From NCBI GenBank assembly GCA_002049455.2, contig KV918896.1:62001-126000 (forward strand): 64,000 nt of DNA, written 5' to 3'. The stretch's first letter is position 1. Every line of letters starts with the position of its first letter. Source of the stretch: Porphyra umbilicalis (taxonomy: Eukaryota; Rhodophyta; Bangiophyceae; Bangiales; Bangiaceae). A model generated the notes under the pieces. The model saw only the letters and a program-made list of their open reading frames with translations. It was not told the origin of the DNA and made no database searches. Both the position numbers and the translations under genes were made by a program. Below are positions 8,626-39,916 of the stretch, piece by piece.

Positions 8626-8937
8626 AGGCCGCACGACAATCATCTATCCTCAGAATGGAGAACGAAGTTTTCTCTCTCTGGAAAAGTAGCCGATTCTATC
8701 GGCCTGGAGGCACTTTTTCTCTTTCTTCGGGGCTCTGTATCTCCGGAACGGCTGCCCTACGGACAAATCTGAGCAGCGCAAACGGGGGATGGGGGGAGGC
8801 ATGGGCAAATGTTTGCAAGCTATTGAATGAGCTGGGTCGCGCAGTCGTCTGGCGATTTCATGAAAACGCGTCTGTGGGGCATGTGAGAGCTTGCGCCTCG
8901 ATTTACAGTGGACTCTCAGAGCCCGCGCGGGTCCTAC

Positions 8938-8969
8938 CTAAAGGTCGATTCCACGCATTAAGGCGCATG
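8938..8969 (+). repeat. Left inverted repeat of segment 1
   Basis: Begins CTAAAGGTCGATTCC and ends AAGGCGCATG. It matches the reverse complement of 25252-25283 at 31 of 32 positions; the only difference is the seventh base. Similarity stops sharply on both sides. Confidence 0.75.
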
Positions 8970-9587
8970 GGCGCCACCCATATTGCGGCCCCCAGAACTC
9001 AGCAATGGCTCAAGCGTTTTTGCTCATCATGGACGCATCCTGGAGCGTACTTCATCAGCTTTTTTATGGCACACTTTCAGGCGGCTACGACAATCGGCTG
9101 GGGAGATAGAGGTTTTTTCTTGCATCCCACCGTAGTAATAAACGGCATTTTCTGCAATAAGGTGCCCGCTGGTGACGCTGCAGGCTGTAACTCGACGTGG
9201 CCTGGCGACAAAATGCGTTTCATAGGTACTGCGGGGATATGTGGACGACATTCGTGGCCGTTGGAGCGCATGGGCCGTGGTGGTGGGGGGCTGGTGATGC
9301 TCGTAGCCAGCCGAGAAGAAGCGTATTTCCATGCGATGCCATATCGGATTAATCGGAAATTGGATAGGGGGGCTACAAGTCCGGCAGTGATTCTTTGCTC
9401 GTGTGTCGGGTGGCGCCCTTTTTTTGATCCGAGGGCGGATTCCAGTCCCACTCAGTCGAACGTGGCGCCTTTTTGATCCGAGCAGGCCGACTGACGTACG
9501 GCGCTTCTCGCCTGGCTTGGCGGGCGCACGCTGCCGCGGCTCACGCACCGGGTCACTGCCCACCGGAGTTAGGAATTAGACATTGCA

Positions 9588-9613
9588 GCTTTCGCTCAAA
9601 TCTGGGCGAAAGC
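9588..9613. repeat. Hairpin repeat GCTTTCGC...GGGCGAAAGC, left copy
   Basis: An 8-bp stem (GCTTTCGC / GCGAAAGC) with a short AAAT-containing loop. A near-identical hairpin lies at 24301-24325, on the far side of the three-gene cluster. It could be a transposase-binding site; that role is inferred from position only. Confidence 0.55.
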
Positions 9614-9637
9614 AGTGTGCGAAACCCAAACTCGAGA

Positions 9638-9695
9638 CCGCACGGGGGGGGGGGGGGGGGGGGGCCCGCGCTTCGCGCGGGGGGGGGGGGGGCGC
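9638..9695. repeat. Poly-G tract with GC hairpin
   Basis: Two G runs of more than ten bases flank a perfect hairpin CCCGCGC-TTC-GCGCGGG. The tract lies between the left hairpin repeat and the first gene of segment 1. G-quadruplex or hairpin formation is plausible. No further role is evident. Confidence 0.6.
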
Positions 9696-10020
9696 CTGCG
9701 GCGCTTTGCGGCGTGCCTGCCGGATATGAACCGGAAACAGTTGACATGCCAGGCCGTAGCGAACCGGTTGCAATGACGTGTTGTGTCATGCAAGGTCGTG
9801 AAGCGTCGATCTCGTTACTGGACCATAGATCGTCCGGTAGTGGGCCCCGACAATACCGGGCCCCGGGGTCCTCGGCGCGCTCATGCGGCGTGCTGGGCGT
9901 GTACGGGATGCCCACTTCCAACCCTTCCCCCACCGACCTCCATCCCCACCCCCCCATCTCCCCACTGCTACTGCGCTTTGATGCGTCTCCGCGACCCCCC
10001 ACGCCGCTGTGCGATAGGCA

Positions 10021-12738
10021 ATGACCACCATTGCACCCCCTCTCCCTGTCGGTGTTTGTGGAGGAGCGGACGCGCCGGCCTCGCACGATGACGTCGGCGC
10101 TGCATGGGTGCCGTCTCGGACCGTTGGGGACATGGAGGTGGGGGCTCCTGCTGGTGGCAGTGACGCGACGCCGTCGGCGCCGCTGGTGAGCGTCGGTGGG
10201 GAAGAGTTTTTGTCTCCCTCTCGCAGTCGCGATCGGGGGGAGAGCGCGACTCCATTCGATGCTGGACGTGCTGGGGGAGGGGTGTCGATGCTGGCTGAGG
10301 GTGCGTCTGTTGCGGCAGTCGTGCCACACCCGGCGAGTGGCGGCGGTACGGACGGGGCAACGACTCTACCAAACGGCGGCGGGGTTGGAAGGCCGGTCAT
10401 CCAAGGCGTCGACGCGGGCAGTGGTGCGGCCGCGGTAGGGGGTGTCGACCGCGCCGCTGCCGACTCCGATATCGGCGGCCGCCGCCGGTACCGAGAGCGC
10501 AACCGAGACCGTGACTTCATCCAATTTTTTGCGGATCTCGGCGTCACCGACCGCCCGAACGCGCCATTCCTCGCCGGGTTGTTGCGTGACTTCCGAGATG
10601 CGGCTGCCCGCCTCGACAAGCACTTGGCCGGCTACTCCGCGTGCGTGCACGCGGCGGTCAGCCGGTTGGCGCCAGCGGCGAGCCCCTCCGCCTCCCCCGA
10701 GCACCTTTGGAAACGGGTCCACGACCGGCTGGGCTTTTTCCACGACCGCGACGCCCATGCCCAACGTCTCGTCAACATGGGCTTGTCGTTTGCCTACCGT
10801 CACTTGGAGCTGGACGCACTTGCCGTCGCCAATGCTCACCTGCTTCAGGACCGGCGACTCAAGCCTGACGTGGCCGCGACGGTGGTGCTCACGGACGACG
10901 TCCGCCGCATTCCGCAGTCGCAGTTGACGTCAGAAGGACCGGTGGAGGCGGCGGCGGCGGGGGCGGCTGAGGCGGGGGCGGCGGCCGAGGCGGCGGCGGC
11001 GGCGGCGGCGGCTGCCGTGGTGGCGGCGGCCGACTCGGACTCGGAGCTGCCGGGCGGCCATTCCGATGACGGCGACGGGTCGAGGCAGACCAGTGCGGCG
11101 CACGCCAATCAAGACGCCGCCCAGGCAACTCTCGGTGCGGCGGTTGGGCAGGTGGGTGCTGGTCGTGGCGTGGATTGCAGCGCTTTCTCGGGTGTGCGTC
11201 CCCCGACAGGGATTCCCACGGCAGGTGACTCGGCGGATGCAGCAGACCCGGATCTGGAGGTGAAGGGCACTTTCCAAGGGCTGCACAACAACCAGCCGGG
11301 GGAAGGTGCTGCGTCGACAATGTACGAACGGCAACCGGTTCTGCGCCCTGTGGGCGATGCGCTGGTGGCAGTCAAAACGGCGTTGGCTCCCCTCGTCACG
11401 CGGCTCGACATCGATGACGCAAGCCGGCAGCTCTTCAATGACTCCCTGCTTCTCTTTGCTCGCCACTCCGCGGCCCGATCGGGCGCCTACAATGACGTGT
11501 CCGCCATGACCATCGACAACTGCTGGACTGTCATCAACAAGGCATTGATGGTGTGGTGGCCAATGTGGCATGCGGCGGGCGGCGGGTGGTCGCTCCCTAT
11601 TGATGGTACGTGTGCATTCAAGCGCAAGCCGGGCAGGCAGACGCAGCAGTCCAAGTGGATGTACCAAGTGGAGCTCACCGCCATGCATGAGGACCTGAAA
11701 AAGGTCACGCGGCCATCCACGCGCTACTTCAACAAGCAGAAGCTACCCTCCCATGCCACCGTGGAGCGCATCAACGGCAAGGACCAGCCCATGCTTCTGG
11801 TGGTGGTGGCCGCGATGCTGCTGATGTGCACCAAGGAGGAGCTCTTCCTGTCCGCTTTGACGGAGCTTTCTTCCACTGGGGTTGGGCGACAGAGCAGAGA
11901 GCAGCCCCTTGCCGACGCCAAGTGCCAGAGTTTCTTCTCTGCCGGGCTGACGGTGCCAACGTACGGGACGGCAGTGCAGCAGGGCCCCGCTATCTCCCAG
12001 CGCGCCCGGTCACTGCTGGCTGCCGCGTCGAGTCCCTCATCTGCCAGAGCCGGAAACGCCACGCCTGACTCATTTTTCCCGTCGGCTGACGGCGAGGACC
12101 TGGGCGACGCGTACGCGGACATGGACGCCGCCCGGGCCCGCGACAGGTCGGACGGTGCAAGAGCAAGTCGAGCCCAGCGCGCTGAGATGATCAAGCGCAA
12201 GCGCCAGTCGGTCGCCAACGAGGTGGACTGTTCCGTGGCTCCAAGCTCCGCGGCCGCAAGGTCGCCGGCAGCAAGCTCGCCCGCCTCAACCGCGCGCGCG
12301 GGGCTGGACATGCGACCAGCGCCGCCGCCTTCCTCGGCTCCAGCGGCTCAAGGTTCTCTTGCAAATGGAACAGCAATCGCTCGTCCACGACCCACTGCTG
12401 CTGCTGCCGCAAGTCCATCTGGCACACGGGCTGCATCATCTGCGGCTGGGCGGGCTGCACGACCTCCAACTCCGCGGAAGCCCCGACCTTCACCACCACC
12501 GCGCCGCCGACCTGCAGCTGGTCAAGCACCGTCAACGTCTGCAGCACGGCCTCCACCATCTGCTCCACCTCCACAACCACCGTCATACCCACAAGTTACA
12601 AGCCCCTCGGTTGGCAGCGATCATGCCGGGACAGTAGAGCCAAGACCTAAGCGCGCGCGACTGGACACGCCGTCCCCGGTCGTGCACTCCGCCGGTAGTA
12701 CGACCGGGGTAGCACTCGTACCAGCTGATCTCCACTAA
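10021..12738 (+). CDS. Unknown 905-residue protein of KDZ-type segment 1
   Basis: I do not recognise a family. The ORF starts at ATG 10021 and ends at TAA 12736-12738. Residues 1-160 are Gly/Ala/Ser-rich and probably disordered. Residues about 165-290 are ordered and helical-looking (RRYRERNRDRDFIQFF onward). A poly-Ala/Glu tract follows near 305-335. A second ordered block at about 470-640 contains CWTVINKALMVWWPMWHAAG and a basic stretch CAFKRKPGRQTQQSKW. The C-terminal quarter is Ser/Pro/Ala-rich with a basic RSDGARASRAQRAEMIKRKR-like segment. The same frame stays open beyond the TAA for 68 codons to TAG at 12943-12945. It is convergent with the helicase gene, 363 bp away. It may be a DNA-binding accessory protein, but that is only inferred from context. 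Confidence 0.7.
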   Translation: MTTIAPPLPVGVCGGADAPASHDDVGAAWVPSRTVGDMEVGAPAGGSDATPSAPLVSVGGEEFLSPSRSRDRGESATPFDAGRAGGGVSMLAEGASVAAVVPHPASGGGTDGATTLPNGGGVGRPVIQGVDAGSGAAAVGGVDRAAADSDIGGRRRYRERNRDRDFIQFFADLGVTDRPNAPFLAGLLRDFRDAAARLDKHLAGYSACVHAAVSRLAPAASPSASPEHLWKRVHDRLGFFHDRDAHAQRLVNMGLSFAYRHLELDALAVANAHLLQDRRLKPDVAATVVLTDDVRRIPQSQLTSEGPVEAAAAGAAEAGAAAEAAAAAAAAAVVAAADSDSELPGGHSDDGDGSRQTSAAHANQDAAQATLGAAVGQVGAGRGVDCSAFSGVRPPTGIPTAGDSADAADPDLEVKGTFQGLHNNQPGEGAASTMYERQPVLRPVGDALVAVKTALAPLVTRLDIDDASRQLFNDSLLLFARHSAARSGAYNDVSAMTIDNCWTVINKALMVWWPMWHAAGGGWSLPIDGTCAFKRKPGRQTQQSKWMYQVELTAMHEDLKKVTRPSTRYFNKQKLPSHATVERINGKDQPMLLVVVAAMLLMCTKEELFLSALTELSSTGVGRQSREQPLADAKCQSFFSAGLTVPTYGTAVQQGPAISQRARSLLAAASSPSSARAGNATPDSFFPSADGEDLGDAYADMDAARARDRSDGARASRAQRAEMIKRKRQSVANEVDCSVAPSSAAARSPAASSPASTARAGLDMRPAPPPSSAPAAQGSLANGTAIARPRPTAAAAASPSGTRAASSAAGRAARPPTPRKPRPSPPPRRRPAAGQAPSTSAARPPPSAPPPQPPSYPQVTSPSVGSDHAGTVEPRPKRARLDTPSPVVHSAGSTTGVALVPADLH

Positions 12739-12989
12739 GAAGGTGAACGCTGCCCTTTGCCACCAGCCAGTCAAACGTTGTCTGCTTTTGACGATTTGCC
12801 CTTGTCTCAACTGCCTGGCGGCACGCTCCCTTCTCTATCCCAGTTTTCGGCGTCGGATGTGCATGGCCTGGCTCCGACGTACCGCGCAGAGTTGAGCGAT
12901 GCAGATCCAGCAGTGGACATGCCAAGTAGAGGCAATGGGCCGTAGGGGGTGGACGTGGATTGATGGCAGAAACGACGCGTGCACTATGT

Positions 12990-12995
12990 AATAAA
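12990..12995 (+). promoter_or_regulatory. Polyadenylation signal AATAAA
   Basis: A canonical AATAAA lies 45 bp beyond the TAG that ends the extended plus-strand frame and about 250 bp beyond its first stop. It is well placed to end transcripts of the 10021 gene before the convergent helicase gene. Confidence 0.5.
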
Positions 12996-13101
12996 TGACT
13001 ATAGCATCTCATCAGACCCCTATGTGAAAAGAAATGAAGGATATGACAAAAAAGAAACATGGACAAAGAGCAACCCCGCGTCTACCTCCACAGGTTCATG
13101 C

Positions 13102-15765
13102 TCATAGCCGATGCCATACACTCAAGTAGCGCCTCTTGGCGTCGTTTTCCGCGTACAAACGCCCCGGAGAGAACGACTTGACGTACAGTTTGGTCTTGTC
13201 CGTGACTCGGCTCACCGCCGCATGGACCATCCCAGCCTCAAAGGACCGCCGCAGGTCGACGACAGCCTCGTGCAAAGTTAAACTCTGCGACCGATGGATC
13301 GTAATCGCCCATCCCATCACGAAGGGCACTTGCTTGCGCACAGCAATCAAACCGGGCTTGGAGAGCAACGGCGCCTCAAACTCAATCATGGGGCACTCCA
13401 CCTCAATCCAAGTGTCCCCTGCCCCGCGGACGCCGAGGGAGTTGAGCCGCACGCCGTCAGGTAGCGGGGTGTCCACAAAATGGACGACGGGCGTCCCGCT
13501 CGGCAGGTAGTCGCAGATGTAGCCCATGCTCCCGTGGCACAGCCCCAACTGCTTCTTGGCGTTGGATGTATACATTACCCGAGCCCCCTTGCAATGTGGG
13601 ACAACGCGAGGAGCGACGCACTCGGCTAGGGCGGCTTGCACAGCGGGCTTGAGAACGGCGGTGGGGTCAACGACGGCCGCCGCGGTGTCGCGGTCGTTGG
13701 GCAATGCTGCCCGGTCTTGACACACAAAGGGAGGCGGCTGCCCCGCGGGGCACAGGCGCTTGAAGCACTTTACGTTGTGCGCGATGACTTCCTCGTGGGT
13801 GGGCATGAGGTGCAATACGTTTACCTCCACCGAGCGGTACTCGTCCGCCGAGACGGTCCGCTCCGCAAAGAGGCCGAGCAGGGCCGGCGAGAGCAGCCCG
13901 AACCGCGCGTCGCGGATAGCCTCGATGAAGTGCGGGTCGCACTGGCGGTGGACCCGCCGCAGGTCAAGGAAGTAGTTGGAAAACAGCAGGGACCAGCACA
14001 CCGCGTGATACGCCATGTCGCCGTCGTGCGGGCGCAGCTGCATAAAGTCCCCAAAGGCGTAGAGCACGCACTCCCGGTCGGTTGTTCGCCGCGACTGGAC
14101 AAGCAGCTGCCACATGATGTCCAGCCGGTTCGCCGGGATCATGGAGATCTCATCGAGGAAGAGCACGCGTACGCGGGCGAGTCGACGACGGATGGGCGCG
14201 TACCTCTTGGTATTCAGCAACCGCGCTGCCTCGACCACGGCACTGGGTGACGACGGCGTGTACCCCATGCCGAATCCAAAGAAGGAGTGGTACGTGTCAC
14301 CCTTGGCCGTCTGGGCAGCGCTCCCAGTCGGCGCGCATACAACAACCGCCCCGTCGTCAGGAAGCATTGTGCGCAGGAGGGCATTGTACTTGCGCAGAAA
14401 GAAGGTCTTGCCGACGCCCGGACCACCCGACACGAAAGTGCTCTTGAGGAGCTGCGCCATGCGGTCGCAAAGCGCGTCGTAGTTGCCGGTGGAGGCCAAG
14501 AGGCTGAGCGGCCCCAGCTCCACATCCCTGTCATGCATCTTGGGGGCGGGGGCTGCAGCACGCGAGGGCGTGCCTCTTGGGTACGCCGTGCTCGTTGGCC
14601 GGCTTGATGTTGACGGCGGAGCGGCACTCGGGCCGGCGTTGCTTTCCGACGCGGGGAGCGACGAGGGGCCCTTGTTGGTCGCCGCGCCTCCCGCGGCGGC
14701 GGAGGCGGGCGCCGTCGACACGACCACCCCTGCTGACGGATTCGGGTCGCAGGGCACCGACTCCGATAGACCTCCAGTGCAGCTACGCGCCTCGACGCCC
14801 GCGCCTGCTTCCGGCGCCGTCCCGTACAGCTGGTTGTAGACAGTCGAAAACTGGCGCAACAGGACGTGCATGTCGCTGTTCGAAAACACCGTCTCGGCCT
14901 GGTCACGCGTCGTGTAGGCGGGGTTGAGCGCCGGGGGTGGACCACCCGCCGTCACTAGCTGCGGCTTTGACGACTTGACGACGGACTCGCCGCGCTCCAT
15001 GCCATAGACGTCGGTGGGGGCACGACCAGAAGCGCACGACACGGGAGGTGCCGTTGGCACCATCGCCCACGAGTTCGCTGCACCCACCTTTCTCCGCTTT
15101 GCTGGAGAAGAGCCGTCCTTGCCCTCTACGGCACAGCACGATGACGCAAGTCGCTGCGTTCCCGCGCCACGCGTGACCAGCGAGGAAGTGGGAGGCGGTT
15201 GCAGCCCGTCGGGTCCATCTTGATGACCAGCAAAAGCCTCCACCGGGTCGGCGTCGTAGCTCGTCGCCACAAGGTGGGGCTCCGACACCTCCTCCTCGCT
15301 TCCGAGAACCTCCAGCAGATCACGGGGCTGCCGACAGGCGAGCCACGACAGCGCCGCAGCCGCGGTAGCAACGCGACAAACCACCGAGACCCCGGCGCCA
15401 CGCGGGGACAGCAGAGACAATGCGCGCTCCGCTCCTGGCTTACGTGCATCAAAGGAGGAAGACAAAGATGGGTTGTAGACTGCAAACCAGCCGTCGTCCG
15501 AACTGGCCGCCGACTCCAACTGCGCAGCGTCCTCGTTGGCATTGGTGACCGCCTCCAGCCGCATCGGGTCCGTCAACCAGCAAAGCGCCTCTGCGTCCGT
15601 GGAGAACACGCCAACGACCAGCAAGCTGCCGAGCGGCATGTTGGGGAGGTAGTGGCCAATGCAATCCGCGGCGGAGGCCGCGGACAGGTCATGGAACATG
15701 CACAGGTCCGATGAAAGGACGCCGACATAGTGCCCGTGGCCGCCGGGAGATGGTGGAGAATCCAT
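13102..15765 (-). CDS. PIF1-like superfamily 1B DNA helicase
   Basis: An 887-codon frame from ATG at 15765-15763 to TGA at 13104-13102. This start follows a less protein-like upstream extension of the same open frame. Helicase motifs appear in order: Walker A SGGPGVGKTFF (about residue 444), Walker B VRVLFLDEISMI (about 535), motif III YAFGDFMQLRP (about 571), GWAITIHRSQSLTL (about 820) and HAAVSRVTDKTKLYV (about 847). These are characteristic of PIF1/RRM3-type 5'-3' helicases. The roughly 440-residue N-terminal part is acidic and Ser/Pro-rich. It holds two loosely similar stretches (VVGVFSTDAEALCWL and VVCRVATAAAALSWL) that I cannot assign. PIF1 helicases also occur in Helitrons, but no HUH/Rep nuclease motif is present here. 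It lies between the unknown ORF and the KDZ transposase, so a role in transposition is plausible. The frame is intact. Confidence 0.88.
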   Translation of the reverse strand: MDSPPSPGGHGHYVGVLSSDLCMFHDLSAASAADCIGHYLPNMPLGSLLVVGVFSTDAEALCWLTDPMRLEAVTNANEDAAQLESAASSDDGWFAVYNPSLSSSFDARKPGAERALSLLSPRGAGVSVVCRVATAAAALSWLACRQPRDLLEVLGSEEEVSEPHLVATSYDADPVEAFAGHQDGPDGLQPPPTSSLVTRGAGTQRLASSCCAVEGKDGSSPAKRRKVGAANSWAMVPTAPPVSCASGRAPTDVYGMERGESVVKSSKPQLVTAGGPPPALNPAYTTRDQAETVFSNSDMHVLLRQFSTVYNQLYGTAPEAGAGVEARSCTGGLSESVPCDPNPSAGVVVSTAPASAAAGGAATNKGPSSLPASESNAGPSAAPPSTSSRPTSTAYPRGTPSRAAAPAPKMHDRDVELGPLSLLASTGNYDALCDRMAQLLKSTFVSGGPGVGKTFFLRKYNALLRTMLPDDGAVVVCAPTGSAAQTAKGDTYHSFFGFGMGYTPSSPSAVVEAARLLNTKRYAPIRRRLARVRVLFLDEISMIPANRLDIMWQLLVQSRRTTDRECVLYAFGDFMQLRPHDGDMAYHAVCWSLLFSNYFLDLRRVHRQCDPHFIEAIRDARFGLLSPALLGLFAERTVSADEYRSVEVNVLHLMPTHEEVIAHNVKCFKRLCPAGQPPPFVCQDRAALPNDRDTAAAVVDPTAVLKPAVQAALAECVAPRVVPHCKGARVMYTSNAKKQLGLCHGSMGYICDYLPSGTPVVHFVDTPLPDGVRLNSLGVRGAGDTWIEVECPMIEFEAPLLSKPGLIAVRKQVPFVMGWAITIHRSQSLTLHEAVVDLRRSFEAGMVHAAVSRVTDKTKLYVKSFSPGRLYAENDAKRRYLSVWHRL

Positions 15766-16428
15766 ACGTAGAGTAGTAGGGTGGGAGGTGGGAGCTCGAA
15801 GGAGCGCAAGAACAGGTGGATGAAGACGCAGGTAACGGGGTGGCGGCGGTGGGGGGGGAAATGTGGGGGGGGAACGTAGAGGCGAAGAAAGCGGTTGGTA
15901 CCGGTATCGAAAGAGAAACGCAAGCACGTGGGCGGCACAGGGTACAAGCAAAGCCTGTTGCTGGCTCCCCCGACTCGTAAGGACCAGAATACAAGGCAGG
16001 TTGCACCTCCCGCCCCCCCACGCAGACAACCAGGTGGCGCCCGTACACCCCGCCCCCAAGGCGGTGGACCCCACACGGCGCGTGGGACGAGTCGAGCGGT
16101 GTCGGAAGGGCGCCCACGGCAGTGTACGCACATAATGAGGGCATAGCCGCGCACCCGCCTCACAGCGGAACAGTACCCGGTGGACCGGGCGGGCTCCCCA
16201 CCCGCCCGCCCGCGCGAAAAGGATCAATGAGCCTCGCAAAGTGGGCTGTTTGGAGGGGGGGGGGAAAGCGCGGGCACAACGGTCGCAGCAGCTGGGTGGT
16301 TCCCTGTGGCGTGTCAGCTGAATCAGAGGGATCACAGAATATTCCCACATCTGGATCACGAATGGAGGGCCACTTGCTTTTGCACCATCGATTTGCACAC
16401 AAAGTACATACATGCAATTCAGCACGCT

Positions 16429-16475
16429 AGGGTTAGCGTCAGAGCTATTAGGGTTATCAGGGTTGTTAGGGTTAA
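16429..16475 (+). repeat. Short cluster of telomere-like TTAGGGTTA words
   Basis: Four imperfect copies of TAGGGTTA / TTAGGGTTA / TCAGGGTTG / TTAGGGTTA occur within 47 bp. TTAGGG is a common eukaryotic telomere unit, so this may be interstitial telomeric sequence. It also resembles the TAGGGTT ends of the hAT-like MITEs in this window. The cluster is too short to decide. Confidence 0.5.
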
Positions 16476-16855
16476 GGCCATGGAGTCAGCGTTGGACGGG
16501 CTCTGGTCCATGGACTCAGAAACGTTGGTCGAGGCGCTCCCGAGCAGATACGGCCAAGGCTCTCCGCACGAACCATAAACTGCCCAACCCCGCGATACTG
16601 GACAGCTCCCCTGGGCAACCGCGAGGCACAAAGCAGACCTGGTCCTGATATGAGGTCGCTGCCCAAGCGCTGCCATGGCCGACACAGGACTGATTGCCTC
16701 CAGGGTGCATTCGTGGAGGCATCGTGAAAGCCATCTGTTTCTCGTTTGCATGAATGGCGAGTGCACGTCTTCGCTCAGAGTTGTAGGTAGTCCCCTCATG
16801 TGCAGCACCATAGGTGCTCCCCGACAGTGCAGTCGCATGTTCTGACAAGCTGGTA

Positions 16856-17105
16856 TCAAGCCGAACGTGGGCACTTCGTTCTGTGTTTCGGGCGGCTGGG
16901 TAGTATTTCCATCAGTCTCATCTTCTGCCAGGTCCGTTCGCATCTCCGACCCGGCAGATGTAGTGGTGCTCACCCTCACTTCAAGCCGAACGTGGGCACT
17001 TCGTTCTGTGTTTCGGGCGGCTGGGTAGTATGTCCATCAGTCTCATCTTCTGCCGGGTCCGTTCGCATCTCCGACCCGGCAGATGTAGTGGTGCTCACCT
17101 TCACT
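16856..17105. repeat. Tandem duplication, 2 x 125 bp
   Basis: Two head-to-tail copies (16856-16980 and 16981-17105), each starting TCAAGCCGAACGTGGGCACT, differ at about three positions. The high identity implies a recent duplication. The unit is non-coding as far as I can see. Confidence 0.9.
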
Positions 17106-18467
17106 TCAGGACTGTGTATCGGTGCGCAAGCTGCGCGTGTCCCATGGTCAGCATGGCAAGTACTGCACCAGGTGGTGGTTGCCTACATTGATTTGGATAG
17201 GATGGCTTCGTTGCTCATGCCTGGCCGGGTTTCGTGAGAGTCTGCTACTGCCATCGGATGGGCACGAAGGCAGGTTGCCTACATGCGGCCTCCCCACATA
17301 CCAGCGTTTCACCTTCTATACAACCACCATCGGAACGCGGTTGTGGGCCGTTCAGCAGATTGATGTGGTGGACTGAGAGTGTTGGGAGTGGAATCCACGG
17401 TGGCTCGTATGGTGCATCCAGTGTCAGAGGGCAACCCCTCAGCGCGTTGATGAGCTGCGCCACCACATGCAGCTGTCTGCCGTCGCTTACGCTGTGCAGT
17501 CTCACCGCTGGGTCTGGCGATCCCTAAGCACACTTGCACCGCGGTGCTCGCAGCCCATCCCGAGCCCTCTAGTTTGGTATGGAAGTTGGCGGTAGTAAGG
17601 CCTCGTACCACGTCAAGTACAGGCAGCTTCTGCCTGCATCAGCCTCATTTTTCCTACTCCACATCATAGTAGCACACCACAACTGAGGGCCGAATTTTGA
17701 ATGTTGGACGTCACCTTCCCGCCAGTCGGGGAGGAAGAGCGTTCTTGCCCGACGTAACAGGCACGGCATGCCCTCTTTCTGCGGCTTACCACCCCTTCTG
17801 CTTCCTGCCATGACAGCGTTGCAAAGAGCTGGGTTCCCAGCTGGGCGCTGGGTAAGAGGGACGGACCTGCTGTCTGGAAGCTGACAGCGTGGCCGGCGGC
17901 TGCCTGCGCGGAGAGCTGTGGAAGCGGCTTGCCGGGCCGTGTCGTGCGACGGCGGTATACGTGCCGATGCTGAGCGGTGGAGGTGGCGGTGGGTTGCGCA
18001 CCCCGGGAGCTGCCGGCGCTATGGTGGCCCGCCTCCAGCCTGCTGGTATTCTGCAGACGACTGAGCTCATGCAGCAGTCGGCCGCCACGACGGCTGGTGG
18101 GCAGTGGAGACGGCCGCGGCGGCTCGGTTTCCTCGACGGCTGTCGGGCATTGGGGACGGCGGCGGTGCTGGAGAAGGCTGGCGCCGCGGCCACGGCGGAG
18201 AAGGCGGAGGGTGCCGCTGTAACCGTGTGGTGAAAAAAGCTTGTTTCTGGGTGCCAATGACTATGGGTGCCTCTGTGACGCTGTGGTGGGGGAGCTCGTG
18301 CTGGAGGCCAGTGAAGGGTGGTTGCTATGGCCGTGACGCTTCTATCTCTGTGTGCGTGTCATATCCCGCAGGACAATGAATTCCTTGTTCCTTTCTGTAC
18401 ATCTTCTCCTTGGCTCAAAGACACGCTGCGTGGTCGTAGGCATCAGTGGGATGATGAAGGGACCAGT

Positions 18468-21400
18468 TTACAACGAGCACACCAAGTCATCAACAAACAA
18501 ATCGATAGCAACGCGCTCCCTCAACGTATCCATGTCATCTTGCGTGTGACTCAATGGCACCCCAGCGGCAAAGCACTCAGCAGCCGCGAGCGCAAAGACC
18601 CCACAGCTGCTCCCGTCGAACTGCTCAGGCAGGTCCTCGTTTTCCACCAGCGGCCAGTCGTCGATGTGCATTGCGTCAGCTGCGTCTTGACCGAGCTGGT
18701 GGTGCACCTCGTCCTTGAGCCAGGCTCGCAGGTGCGGCACCGCGCCGGTCTTGTCCCCGTCCAGGAACGAGTCACAATACTTGAAGACGCGGTCGGCCAC
18801 GTCGATGACAACCAACACCCAGTGCACACGCCCGAGGTTGAGCGGGACGACAATCATGTCCACCGCGGCCAAGTCGAGGCCCACCGTCCTCACCCACGAG
18901 CGCACGCTGCGGAAGTCGCGGCCCATGCGCGGCGAGAACATGCGGTTGTAAAAGTACGTGTTGAGGCAGCGGGTCCGCCGCCAGGTCGACCCGGCCGCGT
19001 CGGCCGCCTCGCTCGCGCCGCCGACGGACGCCCGCATCTGGTCGTCGTGGTAGTTGATGAGCTTGAAGAACGAGTTCATGATCTTGTCGTTGAGCCAGTT
19101 GTCACCGCGCAGCAAGGCAAAGTCGGCGACCGACAGGTCGATGTTGGCGCGGTTGCGTGGCCGGACGACCTCGTCGCCATCTTGCTCTGCCGTCAAGCTC
19201 GCGACTAGAAGCTTCTCCTCCTTGGAGAGAGGACGGCAGTTGGGACCGCTCGACCGCGTGACACAGGCGCGCAGCCAGGCAGGGACCTCAATGTAGCGCC
19301 CGACCGCCGGTTGCGGGTCTTGGCGTGGATGCTCGCGCACCACTCCATCCCCACCTTGACGCCTAAGACACACTTGTCCCGCCGCTGGGGGAGCATCGAC
19401 GCCGTCTTGATCTCGGAGAGGACGCAAAGGTTGGGCACGGTCAACGTCAACAGCAGGAGCGACATCGTCTGCAGGGAGGGGGGTCACTGCACCTCGGCCG
19501 TCACACCCGCACGACGGGCCCCTCTGGCACGAGTGCGAGATCCGCCGGTGGAAGAAGGAGGCGAGGGGGATGTGGTCGTTCTCTGCGCGCGGCTTGCCGG
19601 AGAAGAGCTTGGCCAGCTTTCTCAGGTTCATGTGCGCCACCTGAAGCATGCGGTGGACCATGTAGGTATCGGGCGCCATGTACGCCAAGCTGGTACGATT
19701 GCCGACCGAGATGGAGTGGGAGACCTCCGCCGCCTGGGTGGCCACGCCCGACGTGGCGCCCAAGCTCTGGTCGGGCATGTAGACAGGTGAGCACGAGTGG
19801 GTGATCGAGTGCGGTCGGTCCAATATGCACCGCACACCGTGGTTGCGCAGGATAGGACGGACCCGCCGCATCGCGTTCTTATCGATTTTACAAGCGACGT
19901 CGTAAAATATCACCTTGGGCAGCTCCGGGAAGCGCTCGAGCACGATAGAGAGAGCCTCCCCGACGCTCTCCGCGTTGAACAGCACCCGGAAGCCGAGCGT
20001 GATGACGTGGGGGCATACCACATTGAATACCCCCTGGGTCAAACCGGCCATGACGGAGAAGGCCTTGTTGCACGAGTCCTCGTCGCCCTCCTTGTCCGCG
20101 GCGTGCCGCTTCTTGCCCTTGTACTGGCGCCGCCGCTCCGCCGCGACCGAGTCGGAAATGCCAGGGCGAACGCGCGGTAGACTGGCAAGAAACTCATACG
20201 ACACCAGCGGGTCGTCCGAGTCCGTGTCACGGTACGTCGGGTGCGACGCCCGCCATCGAGCAAAAGCAGAGGCAGTCGGTCGGCCACCCCACGTTGAGCA
20301 GTAGCCCATATTCACCCACTGGCGCTCCTTGGTGCGGTTGCTGCTGGCCTCCTTGGCGAACTCGGCATCAATCACCTTCTCGAGCTCCACTGCGTGCCCG
20401 AGTAGAGTCCCGACCGCCACACGGAAGTTCTTGTCCCCGTCCAGGTCGTCGTCGAAAAGGCCGATGAAGCTGGACACGAACCCAACCCCGTCCGCCGCCC
20501 TTGTCATCATCCGCCACGTCTCCTTTCCCTTGAGTCTCAGCCCGTCGGCCAGAAGCGCGACCGCCTTCTCGTCGTGCGCTTGAAACATACCTGTTGCCGT
20601 CTCGGCCAGCATGGCCTTGAGGAAGGGGCGGATGCAAAGCCAGGCCCCGTCATCATCCCGGGCATGTGAAGCGAAGTTGGGAGCACAGATGCCCACGCGG
20701 TCACGCCACGTCTCGGCCGGCAGCTTGACCCGCTTGCCCTTCTTACCCAGCACCAGGTTGCCATCTTCGTCCTGGCGCAGAGACGCCTCCAGGCCGCGAT
20801 CACCCCGCTCGACGCGGTGTGCCTTCCGCGCGCGCGCCGACGCTCCGTCGCTGTCTCCGGCTTGCGAGGAGCCGCTGCTAGCGTCGTCACCGACCCCGTC
20901 CTTGACTACCACCTCGTCCTTGACCGCGTCGCTGGCATCAACGGGCGAGGATGAGCCGAGCGGGAAAGAACGGAAAAAGACGTTGGCAGCTGCTGCTTCC
21001 ACCGACGGCCGGGCGTTCGTCGTGCGGGTCGCGTCCCATTCCCGCAGGTGCTGCTCCTGTGTCGGCGTCAGCGGCTTGGAGGAGCTCAACACTTTGTCCA
21101 CTGCAACGCGCAGGGCGGCATTCTGCAAAATGCACAGCTTGGAGGCGTCGATGGGCAAGACCGGGCAGTTCTCCGTGGGGCGCAGAGGGTGAACGTTGTC
21201 CGTGTCGGTGCACCCAATGGATTGGGCGTCGATCACAATGAAGGCGGGGTTGGGGCCGCATATGGGGCACCTTGCCGACTCGGGCGGTATCGCGATGGCG
21301 CGCGCCGCGGCGGTCCCCAACTTGACAACGTCCTGCCGCCGTGACCGGAAGCAGGCGATGGTGTTGGCCAAATGGCGGGTTGCGGCTGTGTAGGTGGAGC

Positions 21401-23252
21401 GCGATGAGATGATGAACGACAACAACTGGTCGACAATCCCACGGGTGAAGACCATCCACTGCTTCTGCTTGTTGCGGCGACGGAAGGAGAACAAGCCATC
21501 GTCGCTGCCGTCATACTCCACGACTCGCTGACACGCACCGGCATCGCATGTCCATCTCCCCACAGTCAGCTGTCGACAGGGCCATTTGTGGAAGCGAAAC
21601 AAACACAAACACAAGAAAAATGAGATGAGTTAGAGAATGTCCAGGAACGCGTGCGTGTTGGCACCCTCTAGGACAGGCGCGAGGTGGACGTGATCGAAAA
21701 GGAAAGAGCAAAGATAGAAAAAGAGTAAGCAATGACGACGTACCCGAAGAGCAGGAGCTGTAGGATGGTGCGTGAAGACGACAGCCTCCTCGGCGGTCAC
21801 GGCGTGCCTGCTGCCACGAGCTTGGCCGCAGCTCCCGCAGCGCGACTCGACCAACGTGCTGCGCGTGTCCACCACGAGTTGCCGACGGAGAGCCGCACAG
21901 AAGGCGCCCATCATGGCGTTGAGGTCCTGGACAGCATCCTCGTCCCCCCGCCGCGAGCACGACGCCAACACAGACTGCATGTCCGCAGTACGACACCACA
22001 CGGAGCCGAGCTCAAGCTCGCTGGTGCACGGCATCATGTTCCGCATCAAGCGGTCGGAGAGGGTCGACTCGGGCGGGTCGGTGGTCGACCTCTGCGTGTC
22101 GGACGGCAGCTTCTCCAACCCGTCGTCCTCGTCTTCACTCGTCAAAAATTGAGGGCGGCGGCCGGCAGAGGACGACTTGGGCTTGACCTTCGCCTGCTCA
22201 TCATCACTGGGATCAACCGGGCTCACGGAGAGGTTGGCACGCACGCGGCGCGCCACTGCCACATGACCACAGCGACGGGAGAAGGAGCGGCACCCAGGCG
22301 CTACGCACGTCGCGTACTTGCCCGTGAACGTGACGATGGAGTACACCTTCCGGTACAGCACAAAGAGCACCACGTTGTTGCCGACCTGCCGCGGCACCGC
22401 GAAGTCGGCCGCGTCCACCGTGAGGCGCATCCGGCGACGAAACCGAGCATACTCGACGCCAGAGACCGGAAGACACCGGTTGACGAGCTCCGTGTGCATG
22501 CACTCGGCGCTGCGGGATGAGGAAGACAAGAAGCTGGCATTCTGCGTGCCGGAGAAGCACGAACAGAGCAAGCCGCCCCGGCTCGACACCCACAGGATCG
22601 CGCTCTCGTCGCGCCGCGTCCCGTCCTGCAAAACAATGGCGCGGAAGCGTGAAGATGGATCGCCCGTGATGGTCGCGGTCACCCTAGCCGAGTCCTTGCC
22701 ACAGGCAGAAGAAGATGGCAGGCCGACGACACGCTGTAGACATGGCACCAGCGCCTCCTCCAGCTGGTCTGTGAGGGAGAGCTCGCCGGGGGCTCGCCGG
22801 TAGCGCTTGGGGATGACTTCCACGCCGGGGGAGCCATGCACTGCGTGTGCCGCATCATCGACCTCCATCCCGTCGTCACCGTGTGAGTAGCCTCCGGCCG
22901 TACCCCCACGCGTTGAGGAAGGACGCGCTGCACGCTCAAGCCGACGGTGTTGTTGACGGCTGTGAGACGGCGTGACCTCCGGTCGCCCCCCATCACGTCC
23001 TTGCCGCGTGGAGAGGTAATCTGGCTCGTCCTCGCTACCGCCCGGTAGGTCTTGGGAGGCTATGCGGTCCGCCCAGCCGTGGCCCACGCTGCGACCGCCA
23101 GAGCCACTGGCGGGCCCACGTACGAGGGTGCCCAAAGCTTGGTCGGATGGCGCCGTTGCCAGGGCGTGCCCGATGACACTCAACGACGCATCGCTGCCGA
23201 CAAAACGAGAAGACACCACAGGCCCAAAAAGCGGGGGATCCTCCTCCTCCAT
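18468..23252 (-). CDS. SWIM-KDZ transposase with C-terminal Ulp1 protease domain (spliced)
   Basis: Two exons, 23252-21744 and 21569-18468, joined across a 174-nt GT-AG intron, give about 1,536 residues from ATG 23252-23250 to TAA 18470-18468. Exon 1 has a disordered start and then a SWIM-like zinc finger (CVAPGC...CGH, about residues 315-331). Exon 2 opens with a Cys-rich segment (WTCDAGAC...VEYDG). It then carries the transposase core: C..AFSVMAGLTQGVF..CPH, IFYDVACK (about 1059), DRPHSITHSC (about 1088) and a Glu in ATQAAEVSHS (about 1118), which together could form a D-D-E site. The C-terminus is a C48/Ulp1 peptidase: VHWVLVVID (His, about 1417), YCDSF (Asp), and QFDGSSCGVFAL (Gln and Cys, about 1486). 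KDZ proteins with Ulp1 modules are known. Around 19290-19465 the more protein-like frame shifts by one and then returns, so a small extra intron or paired indels may exist there. Confidence 0.85.
21570..21743 (-). other. Intron, 174 nt, GT-AG, phase 0
   Basis: On the minus strand the donor is CGG|GTACGT and the acceptor CTGTCGACAG|CTG, with a T-rich interior. The length is divisible by three and both flanking exons are in the same frame. Read through, it contains a TAA at 21632-21630. Removing it joins a SWIM-bearing exon to the KDZ exon at a sensible place, just before the WTCDAGAC Cys-rich segment. Confidence 0.8.
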
Positions 23253-23329
23253 GACATTCCCCGCAATCCAGCAAGCGGCGGTGACCACCGAGCCCCAAAA
23301 CCGCCGTGGCCGCCCGACAGGCCCAGGTG

Positions 23330-23915
23330 CACAGCACCTCCAGCCGGCACAGTGGCACCGCGGGCACCCACACGACGGCAACGGTTGTACTGGCGAGGGC
23401 GGGGTGAAGACGACGAGAGGGTAGCGGGGCGCCGGCGGCAGCGCCGGTGGCGACGCGCAGCTGCGGCAGCACCCCGGCAGCCATTCAGCCCCAGCCCGCC
23501 AAGCGACACCGCGGGCACCCACACGACGTCAATGGTTGTAGGAGGGGGGAAGCGGGAAGGCATCGACGCGAGGGGGAGGGGCGCCGACGGCGACGCCGGT
23601 GGCGGCCGCCGCCGCGGCAGCGGCACCCTGACCGACGGCGACGACCACAAACCCCGCGGTCGCCGGCCCGGTCAGGCAACAGTACACTCCCAGCCGGCAC
23701 AGCGACACCGCGGGCACCCGCACGACGTCAATGGCTGTACGGGCGAGGGAGCGATGACAATGAAGGGGGGCAGCGGGGGCGCCGGCGGCTGCGCCTGTGG
23801 CGAGGCGCCGCCGCGGCGGCACCCCAGCAGCGGCGCAGCCCCAGCACGCACGGCGGCAAAGCGGGCGCTCCACACGTCAACGGTTGTACGGGGGAGGGCG
23901 GGGTGGCGACGACGG
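23330..23915. repeat. Diverged tandem repeat, about 180-bp unit
   Basis: The core ACACCGCGGGCACCCACACG followed by ACGTCAATGG/CTGTACGGGCGAGGG recurs near 23360, 23505, 23705 and 23870. GC-rich triplet runs of variable length lie between the cores. It sits immediately upstream of the transposase start at 23252, so it could hold promoter or transposase-binding sequence. Frames across it are compositional. Confidence 0.7.
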
Positions 23916-25251
23916 GGGGGGGACGGGGACGGCCGCGGCGACCGCCGCGACGGCGGTGGCTGCAGCGGTGGCGGCGGCGGGGGTGGCGGCGCAGCGGCGG
24001 TGGTGGCAGGAGAGCGTGACGCAGTGACCGTCGTCAGGGCCCCGATTGAGCGCGCCGCATGAGCGCGCGGGCGGCACGCAGCGTTGCGCACAGGTCCACC
24101 AGATCGGCCCAAACGGCATGCCGGATGCACCTGTGTGGCCCACTGCGTCGAATTATCCGGTGGAAAGACGCCCTCGTGTGATCCATCCGGCCATCTCGTG
24201 ACGCGACCCAGTCTCGATATCGTCCCGCAAGGGTGTGCCAGGGTGCGCCCGCTTTCGTTTCAGGGAGTGATCTGATTGGCTGGCCTGCTTTCGCCATCTA
24301 GCTTTCGCGGAAATTGGGCGAAAGCACGCATCTTGGTTTCCTTCATGGCCCACCGACATGGCTCCCCGCGTGCGCCGCTCTGCTCGTGGTATGGTGGCGG
24401 CCGCCCATGGCGTGACGGCGGCCGCAGCCGCCCGAGTCGGCGCGGCTGAAGTTCGCGGTATGACTGCTACCGCGCGCGCGCGCGTCGTGCGGGAGCTCAC
24501 AGATGGTTTTGTTCGTGCGACGCGTGCGGCGGATTGCGCCTGCCCAAGCCCGGAGGAGGCAGTTGACACGCGATTGCAGGGCTCTGGGTGGAAGCGTCCC
24601 GCCCGCCAGAAGGGCTCGTAGAACGTCAGATTGTCCTGTCCGTTGGCGGTTCTGGGGACACCTGCCTGGTGGGGTCCCAGGCGAGTGAATAATGGGCTGG
24701 ATACATCAGTGGGGGGTGTGGGGGGGTGGGGGGGGGGAGGGGGGAACGGCACGCCGCTGCTCGCGCAGCCTGGCCACCGTCAAACCCCCCCCCCCCCCCC
24801 CCCCAGCGTCACCACAGCATTGCATCAGAGGCGGGCCCCGGATGCGGATTCGTGGGTCAGGTGGCGCCAGTCGTAACGAAATACAGGAGGGGGAGGGAGG
24901 CACGCCGGGCGTCAATCTGTGGCCGGCAGCCACGAAGAGAACGGACTCGTTTCCATCGCGAGACAGACGAGTTCCAGGCACAAGATCTGGACAGCGACTC
25001 AAGTAGCACCGCTAATCCAAGTACACTAATTCGGTGTCAGTATCCCAAATTGGTCAGGATCCGTTCCGGATCGGCAGAGACGGAGAAAACGGGGAGATTC
25101 TCGAGGCACAGAGAAACACCGAGGCGTATCTCAGCTCTACAGGACCCTTTGAGCACCTCTTTTTCTTCTCTGAGTACCCATGCCACAGAGACCAGTTCTG
25201 TAGCTTCTCATTGCCAAACAATGCCTGGAACAGCAGGGACAAATATTTCTT
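23916..25251. other. Right subterminal region of segment 1; no firm gene
   Basis: It contains the right hairpin repeat (24301-24325), an 87-codon Ala/Arg-rich frame (24358-24621, plus strand) that lacks motifs, and opposed G and C runs near 24717-24805. A short inverted GGATCCG..CCGGATC word lies near 25067. I would not call a gene here. Confidence 0.45.
24301..24325. repeat. Hairpin repeat GCTTTCGC...GGGCGAAAGC, right copy
   Basis: Same stem and nearly the same loop as 9588-9613. A further half-stem GCTTTCGCCA lies 13 bp to its left. Its position mirrors the left copy relative to the three-gene cluster. Confidence 0.55.
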
Positions 25252-25283
25252 CATGCGCCTTAATGCGTGGAATCGAGCTTTAG
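25252..25283 (-). repeat. Right inverted repeat of segment 1
   Basis: Reverse complement begins CTAAAGCTCGATTCC and ends AAGGCGCATG, matching 8938-8969 at 31 of 32 positions. It is the proposed right end of the 16.3-kb element. No matching target duplication is visible outside it. Confidence 0.75.
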
Positions 25284-36154: not shown

Positions 36155-39100
36155 TTATTTATCTTCGTTGTCAATGTCCACGTGCATACGGCGGTACCAC
36201 TCAGGCCACTTGATAGTGGTCTCCTTGGTGATGTTGTCGCGGTACATATCCACGACGTTGGAGACGGCCTGCTGGTAGACAGTGACGATGATGAACGCGT
36301 CCTGCTTCATCTGAAGTACGTGGTGCTGTTGCCGTCGCGACAGCGCGTTGCGCTCCTCGGAGGAGGACGTGTTGGTCCCATCCATTGACACGAAAGAGTC
36401 GGGTGACATGGCCTTGCTGCAGAGGGTGTGGTTCTTCCGCCAATGGAACCGGTCGACACGCAAGGACACCTCCTTGGCGACGTGAGGGAGGCGCACGAGA
36501 GCCGTCTTGAGGGTAGCGCAAGCAAAGTCGTAGATGATGACGTCGGGGAGCGTCGAAAACCGCTGCACCACGAACTCAATAGGCATTCTCAGGCTCTCCG
36601 ACTTGTCAAGCACGACCACGCCTAGGAACTTGGGGTGCTTGCACGAGCAGAAGGCCCCCAGCGTTCCCCGCGTGTGCGCCTTTTGCTTGCCCATCTCGTG
36701 CTGGCAGTTGGGGAAGTCCGTCTGGGCGGTCGACGCGCCAACAAATCCAGGGATGCTGCGGAGCGGCGGCAGCCCCGGCGCCCAAACACCCGTCCTTAAA
36801 AAGTCCTCTGCCGCCCCGACCGGCAGCCCGTGCGCCGTCACGTACGCCTCGGCGGTCGCCTCGGGCAGCAGCCATGTGCTGGTGTTCTGCTGCGCGGTGA
36901 AGGGTTGGTCGGGGTGGGCCAGCACCATCGCCTCCTTGGTGACGACCTCCTCGTCGCTGCCGTCGTCGTGGCCAGAGCCGCCGCTGCACGACTGCATGGA
37001 TTCAGTGTCGGAGTCGGTGGGCGGCGCGTTCTCCACATATTCCATGTAGTCCCCGCGCGTTTCGACCAGGCAGAGCAGCAGCTCCCCAAAGACACGACGC
37101 AGCTCCTCGCTGCGGCACAGCGTGGGCGCCAAACACGCAACCGCACCCCACAGGATCCGTAGCTCACTCACATCCGCCCGCGCCACGACGTCGGACAGAG
37201 TTGCGACCGTGAAGTCCTCCGAGAGCACACAGTCAAAGACGGCGTTGACGGCGGACCAGTCGTCACCGAGCGCCCACACGGTGAAGGGGTCCACCACAAC
37301 GGCGCGGACAAAGTCGAGAACCTTGAGAGCCGACGCGGCGGTGCACGGCGAGCCAACGCGCAAAGGCAGCACGAGCTTTCGGACCCGCTCCGCGGCGGCA
37401 TCGCCCCCGGTGTCGGCCAACGCCGGCTCGGAAAACTGCTCAGCGAAAAACCGCAGCGGCGCTGCGTCGTCCCACTTCCTCGCCGGCGGCTCGTAGGCAG
37501 GGCCGACGCCAAAGTCGTCGTCACCCATCGCCTGCTCGTAGGTGGTGACGGCCCCGTTGTCGAAAAGCTCCCCGTCACTCGCCCAGCCGACGTTGGCTGG
37601 GGCGCCGCCTATGCTCGCAGCCACGGAGCTGTCGCCCGGCGCCTCATCTTGCCCGTCTAGATGGCCCGACTGGTCCAATTCGGCAGCGTCCTCGTCCTCG
37701 TCGCCCGCATCGTCTAGTGGCGAGCCGCCGCTGACATCGTTGGCGTCGTCCGAAAAGTCGGCCGCGGCGGCCTTGACGGCCTCAATCAATGGTCGAGGTA
37801 CTCGACGGATGAGATCCAGCGGCGCGCCCAAGATGTCCATCTCCAAGGCGCGGCCCGCCCGGCCGCACACGAAAAACGCGCGGAGAAACTCAATCAGCTC
37901 CAGCTGCACGCCACCGTCCTCCACAGGATCCCACCCGCGCTCGTTCTTGCTCTTCTTCTGAGTGAACGTGCTGCCGGCAAAGGTCCGCTCGGCGCCGTCG
38001 ATCACGACGTAGCCCGCCAGCACAATGAAGGCCATGACGTTGCCGCGCATCGCGGTGAGGGTGGTGATGGAGTTTTTCTTCTCGGTCGTGGCGGAATAGA
38101 AGACACCGCCGAGCGCCTTGGACAGCGCCTCGTCCTTGACCACCCGCACGTACACAGACGCCCGCGCGATGGCCGACACCGGGGTGGACGGCCGCAAGAA
38201 CGGGACCATGAACTTGAGCCGGTAGCCCAGCTGGAGCCCATCAAAGCAAATGATGGTGTAGCTGCCATCGAGGCGCACGCACTTGGTGCAGTGCGAGACG
38301 GCTGCTGGCAGCCCCGCGATCACCAGCGTGAGGTAGAGCACAATCGCCTTGCGAATAGTCGTGACGGAGCTCAACTTCTCCTCGGCGTCGGGGTAGATGT
38401 GGGCGGAGCTCATCTCCCAGTAGGCCTCCCGCAGGTATACCGAGTGCCGCAAGGAGCTCCCGTTGCGCGAGAGCCTCACGGCCGTCTCAAACAAGAAGAC
38501 CTCGGAGAAGGCCGTGGAGGAGGACGAGAAGACAACGCCGTGGTCCCGGCCGTCGGGGATCACGCGGTAGTTGCACACGGGGCACCTCCACGTGTACACC
38601 ACGCCCGAGGTCACACCCTCCCCGCACTCGACGAACACCTCCCGCGGCTTGGGCTCGGATTCGCGGGCGACGTTGCAGTACGGGCAAACGTCCGCAGCCA
38701 GAAAGACAAGGACGAAGACGTCGGGGTTTTCAAGCGCCAGCAGGATGAGTGCTCGCTCTACTTGAGCAGAGCGCGGCGGCACTAAATGCCAAGGGAGCAT
38801 CGACTGGGGCGTCTGCTTGCCGCGATCCGAGCCGCTCGCCGCCGCGCCACTCGCGCCGGCACCACCCCCGGATCCGTCTCCTTGGGGATCAGCCGCAGCG
38901 CCGCTACCAGCCGCAGCGCCGTGACCAGCCGCAGTGCCGCGACCAGCCGCAGCATGCACACGGCTGCCATCGTGGTCATCCAATTCTGCATCGGTGTCGG
39001 AAGCATCCGCTGCTGCTTCTTTTGCAGCTGCAGTGGCGGCAGCAGCGTGATGACAGCTGCCGTCCGCCGCGCGACACGAGAAGCAGATCCAGTTGGCCGT

Positions 39101-39916
39101 CCTGTTCTTGCGAACCACCGCGTACGGCCAGCTCCCCCCCGGCATCCGCACGAAGCACGTGGATGGCCCGTACAACACCGCGCGCCCAACTACCCGCGAA
39201 CGCTTCCGCAAAGAGGCCCTCAAAATGGTAAAAGGATCGGCCATGGTCACGCCAAGTGTCGACCGCACCTTGTCGAGGGCGGCCTCCATGGTCTCCTGCA
39301 TCGAACAGCCACCAACTCCAAGGCACGACTCGGCCTCGCTGCACGTGCAGACGACGCTCTGCCCCGTGAAAGAGGCCTCCACGGCCACGGCGAGATGGCG
39401 ACCTTAATCGTCCCGCGACCCGCCGGTCCCGTACTTGACTACCACACCAACGGCGCCGCTGCGCGACAAGTCCCAGGCGCGCGTGCTCAGCGCCTTGTCC
39501 GTGAACGTTCTCAGCTTCTGGCGCATCTCACATAGCGCCTGCACGTTGACGTTGCGGAGCTCGGTGGGGTCGAAGAGCTCCGTCAGGTTGAGGTAAGCAC
39601 TCGTGGACAGCAACACGACGAGCACCTGTAGCAGGAAGATCCGCACGTCCAATCCCGACCCCTTCATCCGCCCGGGGCCCCGTCGCGGGTAGCCACCGGG
39701 CCGGTCCACAAATGGCAGGTAGAGTTGCGGCACGGCGGCGGCAGGCACCGAGGGCTTGAAGGCCTGCATGAGGTCGTCCGCGTCAAAGAAGACCACGTCC
39801 CCGTCCGTGGAGCGCTGCCACCGCGCCAGGAGAGTGTCTTTGCTCACCATGACAGTCGCCGCCAGCTCCCTCTGCAGGTCCTCCACCGTCGTGTACAACA
39901 CATTCTTGGATTCCAT
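36155..39916 (-). pseudogene. SWIM-KDZ-type transposase with one in-frame TAA
   Basis: ATG 39916-39914 opens a frame that continues to TAA 36157-36155 (about 1,252 residues), with a single TAA at 39406-39404 (codon 171). The protein has an unassigned N-terminal region, then a SWIM zinc finger WICFSC...CHH (about residues 274-289), acidic low complexity, and a long central region. The C-terminal transposase signatures are C..EMG..KAHTRGTLGAFCSCKH, IIYDFACA (about 1127), VDRFHWRKNHTLCS (about 1155) and SSSEERNALSR (about 1187). The order YDxAC, DRxH-HxxC, E is the same as in the 18468-23252 protein, so the two are distant relatives. There is no Ulp1 domain here. AATAAA overlaps the stop codon on the minus strand. 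It could be active only if the TAA is suppressed or spliced out. Confidence 0.75.

Follow-up and report, generated by a model that had tools for sequence, protein, structure and literature searches.

Transposons of the Kyakuja-Dileera-Zisupton (KDZ) superfamily are generally longer than 10 kb and include many giant families with extra genes, among them elements of up to 30.3 kb in Ectocarpus and a moving KDZ element of 31.7 kb in Chlamydomonas, as set out in sections of one survey (PMC12477816). The main text of the same survey does not contain the word PIF1 and calls most accessory genes unknown (PMC12477816). Extracts of a second paper give the target duplication as 8 bp for Zisupton and a Dileera element and as 7 bp for Kyakuja, and name a TET/JBP dioxygenase as the accessory gene of fungal KDZ elements (PMC12730594). 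A helicase borne by a transposon is a feature of Helitrons, where it is fused to a Rep nuclease (described in part of PMC6431247).

Here we analyse a 64,000-nucleotide stretch of the Porphyra umbilicalis genome (C136:62001-126000, hereafter the window; the assembly comprises 83.8 Mb in 665 contigs). The assembly has 11 phycobiliprotein-family matches (ten on contig C665, one on C128), which most likely reflect a red algal host, although phycobiliproteins also occur in a few other algae. We conclude that positions 9566 to 24347 are very probably a complete KDZ-superfamily DNA transposon, that its target was an older Tc1/mariner-like copy, and that it made a Zisupton-like 8-bp target duplication. 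It has in common with Zisupton and its relatives the KDZ transposase domain and the 8-bp duplication, and accessory genes are known elsewhere in the superfamily; it differs from them in its conserved PIF1 helicase and ORF905 and in having no long terminal inverted repeat. The length of the duplication speaks against Kyakuja.

Results

The element lies inside a disrupted Tc1/mariner-like copy

The boundaries and their surroundings are as follows.

9566..24347, unstranded: KDZ-type element, 14,782 bp, termini 5'-GAGTTAGGAATT...TTCCTTCATG-3', supported by the alignment of L063 to both flanks, by the start of similarity to C178 and by the same two termini in C541
9558..9565, unstranded: left copy of the target-site duplication, GCCCACCG, from the 8-bp overlap in L063
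24348..24355, unstranded: right copy of the target-site duplication, GCCCACCG, from the same overlap
8938..9565, unstranded: left part of the interrupted Tc1/mariner-like copy (terminal inverted repeat at 8938-8969), outside the KDZ element
24356..25283, unstranded: right part of the interrupted Tc1/mariner-like copy (terminal inverted repeat at 25252-25283), outside the KDZ element

An earlier note on this DNA had taken a pair of 32-bp inverted repeats for the ends of a single KDZ transposon of 16.3 kb. The repeats are present at 8938-8969 and 25252-25283 (31 of 32 bp paired, 16,282 nt between them) and they do enclose the genes, but they belong to a different and far more numerous family. 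The 32-bp arm is found at 137 genomic sites with up to three mismatches (the reversed-pattern control gave none), and among the 30 arm loci that were retrieved, all of them exact matches, 21 have an arm pair less than 1.5 kb apart (21 of the 25 pairs other than that of the window), 19 of these being elements of 669-681 bp. Two longer members, L061 and L062, share 92.6% and 95.2% of their bases with the window across 631 bp, an open reading frame of L062 matches DDE_3 at 2.1e-4, below the cut-off of that model, and none of L061 to L065 matches the proteins of the KDZ element, so the repeats recur without the genes. We refer to the family as Tc1/mariner-like, a putative assignment.

The comparison that fixes the true ends, of a kind that the note had proposed, is with L063, a 1,555-bp Tc1/mariner-like copy that aligns to the window at 99.4% over 8929-9565 and at 98.8% over 24348-25283. 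The two alignments share exactly 8 bases of L063, GCCCACCG. L063 thus serves as a naturally occurring empty version of the target, and the overlap places the insert at 9566-24347 (14,782 bp), flanked by a target-site duplication of 8 bp. The duplication lies inside the 32-bp repeats, which refutes their role as the ends of the KDZ element; that reading is now very improbable. A search of 30 KDZ loci for the same genes between the same repeats (1.5-kb flanks, up to 8 mismatches) found none, a weak test because the flanks stop short of the ends.

Two relatives bear on the same boundaries. DNA similarity to C178, the nearest relative, amounts to 73.9% over 272 bp and begins at 9565, one base off the element end; the 60 bases upstream of this start do not align to the window (26 of 60 identical), and a search for the right end of C178, carried as far as 52200, did not find it. 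C541 is a second three-gene copy of 15,451 bp with the same two end types (CATGAAGGAAC... and GAGTTAGGAATT...) and is flanked on both sides by GCAGATGA, its own 8-bp duplication. The left-end 17-mer, searched with up to two mismatches, is exact only in the window and in C178 and occurs with two mismatches in five more places. The ends of the element have AGGAA in common at positions 6-10 and a motif array at 25-59; they show no long inverted repeat and do not form a plain inverted pair, a point against the KDZ reading.

These observations also dispose of a cluster of host genes (a transposase-derived gene, a helicase and an open reading frame) in place of a mobile element. Purifying selection on all three genes, described below, would suit such a cluster; the 8-bp duplication made where the element entered another transposon refutes it, as does the second copy in C541 with a duplication of its own, and copies are dispersed over many contigs. 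We give a host cluster next to no credence and treat the locus as a transposon in what follows.

The outer repeat of the Tc1/mariner-like family reads C-TA-AAGG...CCTT-TA-G, with TA on both sides in 16 of the 21 close pairs, and no longer duplication recurs. A TA duplication within a CTAG target is weakly indicated, because TA is self-complementary and is expected with an inverted repeat anyway. Several flanks of this family recur or are palindromic (in L030, for example, tagaatagaca/tgtctattcta), a hint that certain target sequences are preferred. Within one copy, L064:3266-4804 (+) encodes a Harbinger-type transposase (DDE_Tnp_4, 1.5e-21), and that copy aligns to the window in broken pieces. 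Elsewhere in the window, 47184-49992 (+) holds pieces of a Gypsy-type retrotransposon, namely the RNase H of a reverse transcriptase, an integrase zinc-binding domain and an integrase core just under its cut-off.

Transposase gene

18468..21569, minus strand: transposase exon 2, encoding the KDZ core and, at the C terminus, an Ulp1/C48 peptidase
18501..18986, minus strand: Ulp1/C48 peptidase match, His-Asp-Cys present
21570..21743, minus strand: predicted 174-nt GT..AG intron, at a position consistent with where the two parts separate in other copies
21744..23252, minus strand: predicted transposase exon 1 from the chosen ATG, with the SWIM-like and a second Cys/His motif
22494..22565, minus strand: SWIM-like CxCx18CxH motif

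The joined exons would encode a protein of 1536 residues with no internal stop. The note had described this gene as a SWIM-KDZ-Ulp1 fusion, and the assignment holds for the peptidase and the KDZ core. Peptidase_C48 (PF02902) is matched at 1.4e-23, and the His and Cys, presumably catalytic together with the Asp, are found in all 28 loci that have letters there (the window included), the Asp in 96%. The KDZ model (PF18758) is matched in the window copy at 2.1e-4 with 21.5 bits (25.0 bits in the genome search), below the cut-off of 26.6. In the genome as a whole, this model gives 34 matches, 19 of them above the curated cut-off (two of these only with neighbouring pieces), C178 reaches 28.1 bits and is thus above it, 13 of 15 aligned transposase copies match at E 0.01, and the model matched in none of 14 control genomes.

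The SWIM part of the description stands as a conserved motif and falls as a Pfam match. SWIM zinc fingers follow the pattern CxCx(n)CxH. Here, the first Cys of CxCx18CxH is present in 24 of 25 loci (L043 differs) and the remaining three positions are conserved in all 26; the motif is invariant in a 14-copy alignment that excludes L043, and the Pfam SWIM model finds no match in those 14 copies at E 0.1. A model with a short intron between KDZ core and peptidase was rejected, as the alternative frame is not conserved. No relatives of the transposase were confirmed in viral contigs. The window holds a second, divergent KDZ-like transposase reading frame of 1082 codons (36158-39403, minus strand), with 28% identity to the first over 164 residues (4e-12) and no Pfam match at E 0.01.

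PIF1-like helicase and ORF905

13102..15765, minus strand: PIF1-like helicase, 887 residues from the chosen ATG
10021..12738, plus strand: ORF905, a protein of 905 residues, with residues 426-625 the conserved part used in searches

Both frames are open, as the note had said. The helicase matches the PIF1 family (PF05970) at 5.4e-10 in Pfam and PDB chains named PIF1 at 3.8e-22 at best; its start is uncertain because the frame is open upstream to 16485, and residues 1-400 contain no Pfam domain. ORF905 matches no Pfam family, in line with its earlier description as unrecognised, and a single-sequence structure prediction of its conserved part (pLDDT 36) is too low for use. No relatives of ORF905 were confirmed in viral contigs. 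Between the transposase and PIF1 genes, 16856-17105 is a 125-bp tandem duplication with 98% identity.

The three genes recur together

Genome searches, which scored 44 of 333 candidates for transposase exon 2, 91 of 147 for the PIF1 core and 48 of 48 for the conserved part of ORF905, returned at least 61, at least 104 and 44 matches, respectively. The count of gene trios used 61 transposase rows, 86 of the 104 PIF1 rows and 42 of the 44 ORF rows, the rows left out being second pieces of listed loci. Merging gives at least 43 KDZ loci in the genome. In 33 of the 43, a same-strand PIF1 match follows downstream at a distance of at most 9 kb, and the full trio, in the same order and orientation with the ORF on the opposite strand beyond PIF1, is present in 30. 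When either strand is allowed within 25 kb, PIF1 accompanies 41 of the 43 loci (the exceptions are C104 and C312), against a chance expectation of roughly two, calculated for about 80 PIF1 loci spread evenly over 83.8 Mb. From the side of the ORF, an opposite-strand PIF1 lies within 4 kb in 37 of 42 loci. The association extends to divergent KDZ loci (36-40% identity), where distance and orientation vary and PIF1 lies within 25 kb in six of seven (all but C104); one of them, C172, also has the ORF. With the 8-bp duplication and the matched ends, this recurrence upholds the content proposed in the earlier note, a KDZ-type transposon with PIF1 and a further open reading frame; only its boundaries had to be redrawn.

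It is conceivable that PIF1 and ORF905 go back to captured cargo, or to another mobile element with no relation to the first, which was fixed in an ancestral KDZ transposon and has been carried passively since. A study of Ectocarpus giant transposons reports nested insertions that have become fixed in many copies (PMC12477816). Within our own data, the two KDZ loci without PIF1 point the same way, as do the ten of 42 ORF loci that have no KDZ match within 25 kb, five of them with PIF1 and five without. Against passive carriage, the trio persists in 30 of 43 loci even though identity to the window drops as low as about 41% (PIF1) and 27% (the ORF), PIF1 is present at nearly all the divergent KDZ loci, and 22 of the 30 closest PIF1 rows are free of stops over the matched part. 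The dN/dS ratios against C178 (PIF1, 0.27; ORF905, 0.24; transposase exons, 0.15 and 0.18) are likewise unfavourable to it; they are rough figures because dS lies between 0.9 and 1.5, in the range of saturation. The codon comparison with C178, whose transposase and PIF1 matches contain stops, indicates that all three genes are under purifying selection. We consider passive cargo improbable. As the trio recurs in about thirty diverged copies, the helicase looks like a working part of the element.

Subterminal motifs and short relatives

9590..9624, plus strand: left subterminal motif array, TTTCGC at 25-30, GCGAAA at 41-46 and GCGAAA at 54-59 from the end
9644..9692, plus strand: G-tracts (G21, G14) just inside the left end, a possible G-quadruplex site
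24289..24323, minus strand: right subterminal motif array, same layout inward from the right end

Five ends (left and right of the window element, left of C178, left and right of C541) share a layout that reads, inward, TTTCNC at 25-30, a first GYGAA at 40 or 41 and a second at 53 or 54. Run as a regular expression over 709,496 start positions in the retrieved DNA, both strands included, it matched only those five ends (six matches, one end being present twice); this measures specificity only, because the rule was derived from the same ends. Genome-wide, the layout gives 23 matches against three for a reversed control; these are the five known ends, three left ends near further KDZ modules, 14 matches in a family of short elements, and C262. 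The three left ends are GAGATAGGAAATG in C223, 1.7 kb beyond the ORF905 match, GAGTAAGGAATTT in C400, which has no ORF match, and GAGATAGGAATTG in C135, where the distance beyond the ORF905 match, 6.5 kb compared with 1.7-2.0 kb in the window and C541, counts against the assignment.

The 14 matches of the short family, with ends GAGGTAGGAATC and CGTGAAGGAAAC, comprise five pairs at a spacing of 2.4-2.5 kb, a further pair in C218 with 26 kb between its ends, and single ends in C43 and C100. Among the genomic matches listed, this 2.4-kb family has none to the three genes of the element. Four or five further insertions with ends of the same kind show 8-bp duplications. C9b and C40 are both flanked by CGGCTCCG and, because their flanks are identical, perhaps represent one event; C184 has GGAGTGTC; the duplications of C23 (CCGGTGGT) and C218 (CACTTGAT) can, with the ends shifted, also be read as 9 and 10 bp, respectively. 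C9a has no duplication, and its right flank is common to C9b. The near-identity of the ends in several copies suggests recent movement.

On C9, the 2.4-kb elements at 584564-587004 and 601556-603986 have the same right flank, one of them without the duplication at the left, which looks like recombination or segmental duplication. At C218:7178-33319, the matched KDZ-type ends are 26 kb apart with no listed match to the three genes between them, and the locus is either one giant element or a short element enlarged by nested insertions.

A subterminal hairpin is not supported as a feature of all the ends: folding z-scores over the five ends were -3.1, -2.2, -1.7, 0.0 and +0.6, the strict-spelling pattern occurs in one place only, and it is the motif layout that is supported. 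Each of the three left ends that were read far enough has a run of G17-G22 starting 62-79 bases inward. Runs of at least 12 G or C number 16 in 296 kb of loci compared with 12 in the 64-kb window, and the pairing of G-run and PIF1 is suggestive only, because GC content is high here and a run of this kind is also present in the disrupted mariner copy.

Discussion

A KDZ transposase that leaves an 8-bp stagger implies, from what is known of the family, cut-and-paste transposition. We suggest that the transposase would bind the subterminal GYGAA array at both ends, that the KDZ core would cut, and that joining would take place at the 8-bp stagger. Through its fused Ulp1 peptidase, the transposase could deSUMOylate either the transpososome or silencing factors of the host. 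PIF1 helicases are described as unwinding G-quadruplexes, and the PIF1 encoded here may open DNA that is structured or rich in G while the element is being excised, repaired or replicated, with ORF905 as an accessory protein that perhaps binds DNA. A more specific version, in which the G-quadruplex-prone run at the left end and the element's own PIF1 together gate mobility in a helicase-assisted cut-and-paste reaction, with ORF905 as the partner of PIF1 at the ends, is possible and in our judgement doubtful.

Helitrons also carry a transposon-borne helicase, and Helitron helicases are akin to PIF1. In contrast to Helitrons, which are recognised by a Rep/HUH nuclease and by the lack of a target duplication, this element makes 8-bp duplications and its proteins have no Pfam match to Rep/HUH. 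With the giant elements of Ectocarpus and Chlamydomonas it has the KDZ superfamily in common. In extracts of the literature searched, the words Zisupton and PIF1 co-occur only in unrelated places (PMC11258239, PMC12411881), and the papers matching a search for KDZ with Ulp1, SWIM and transposase do not deal with KDZ. The KDZ superfamily was already known; what is new, within that literature, is a conserved PIF1 helicase and ORF905 in a KDZ transposon.

A helicase and a third protein have been kept beside a SUMO-protease transposase in about thirty diverged copies, and they may be parts that the transposition reaction, or escape from host control, needs. The defined ends, the target duplication and the short relatives with the same ends make this element a concrete system in which to test these roles.
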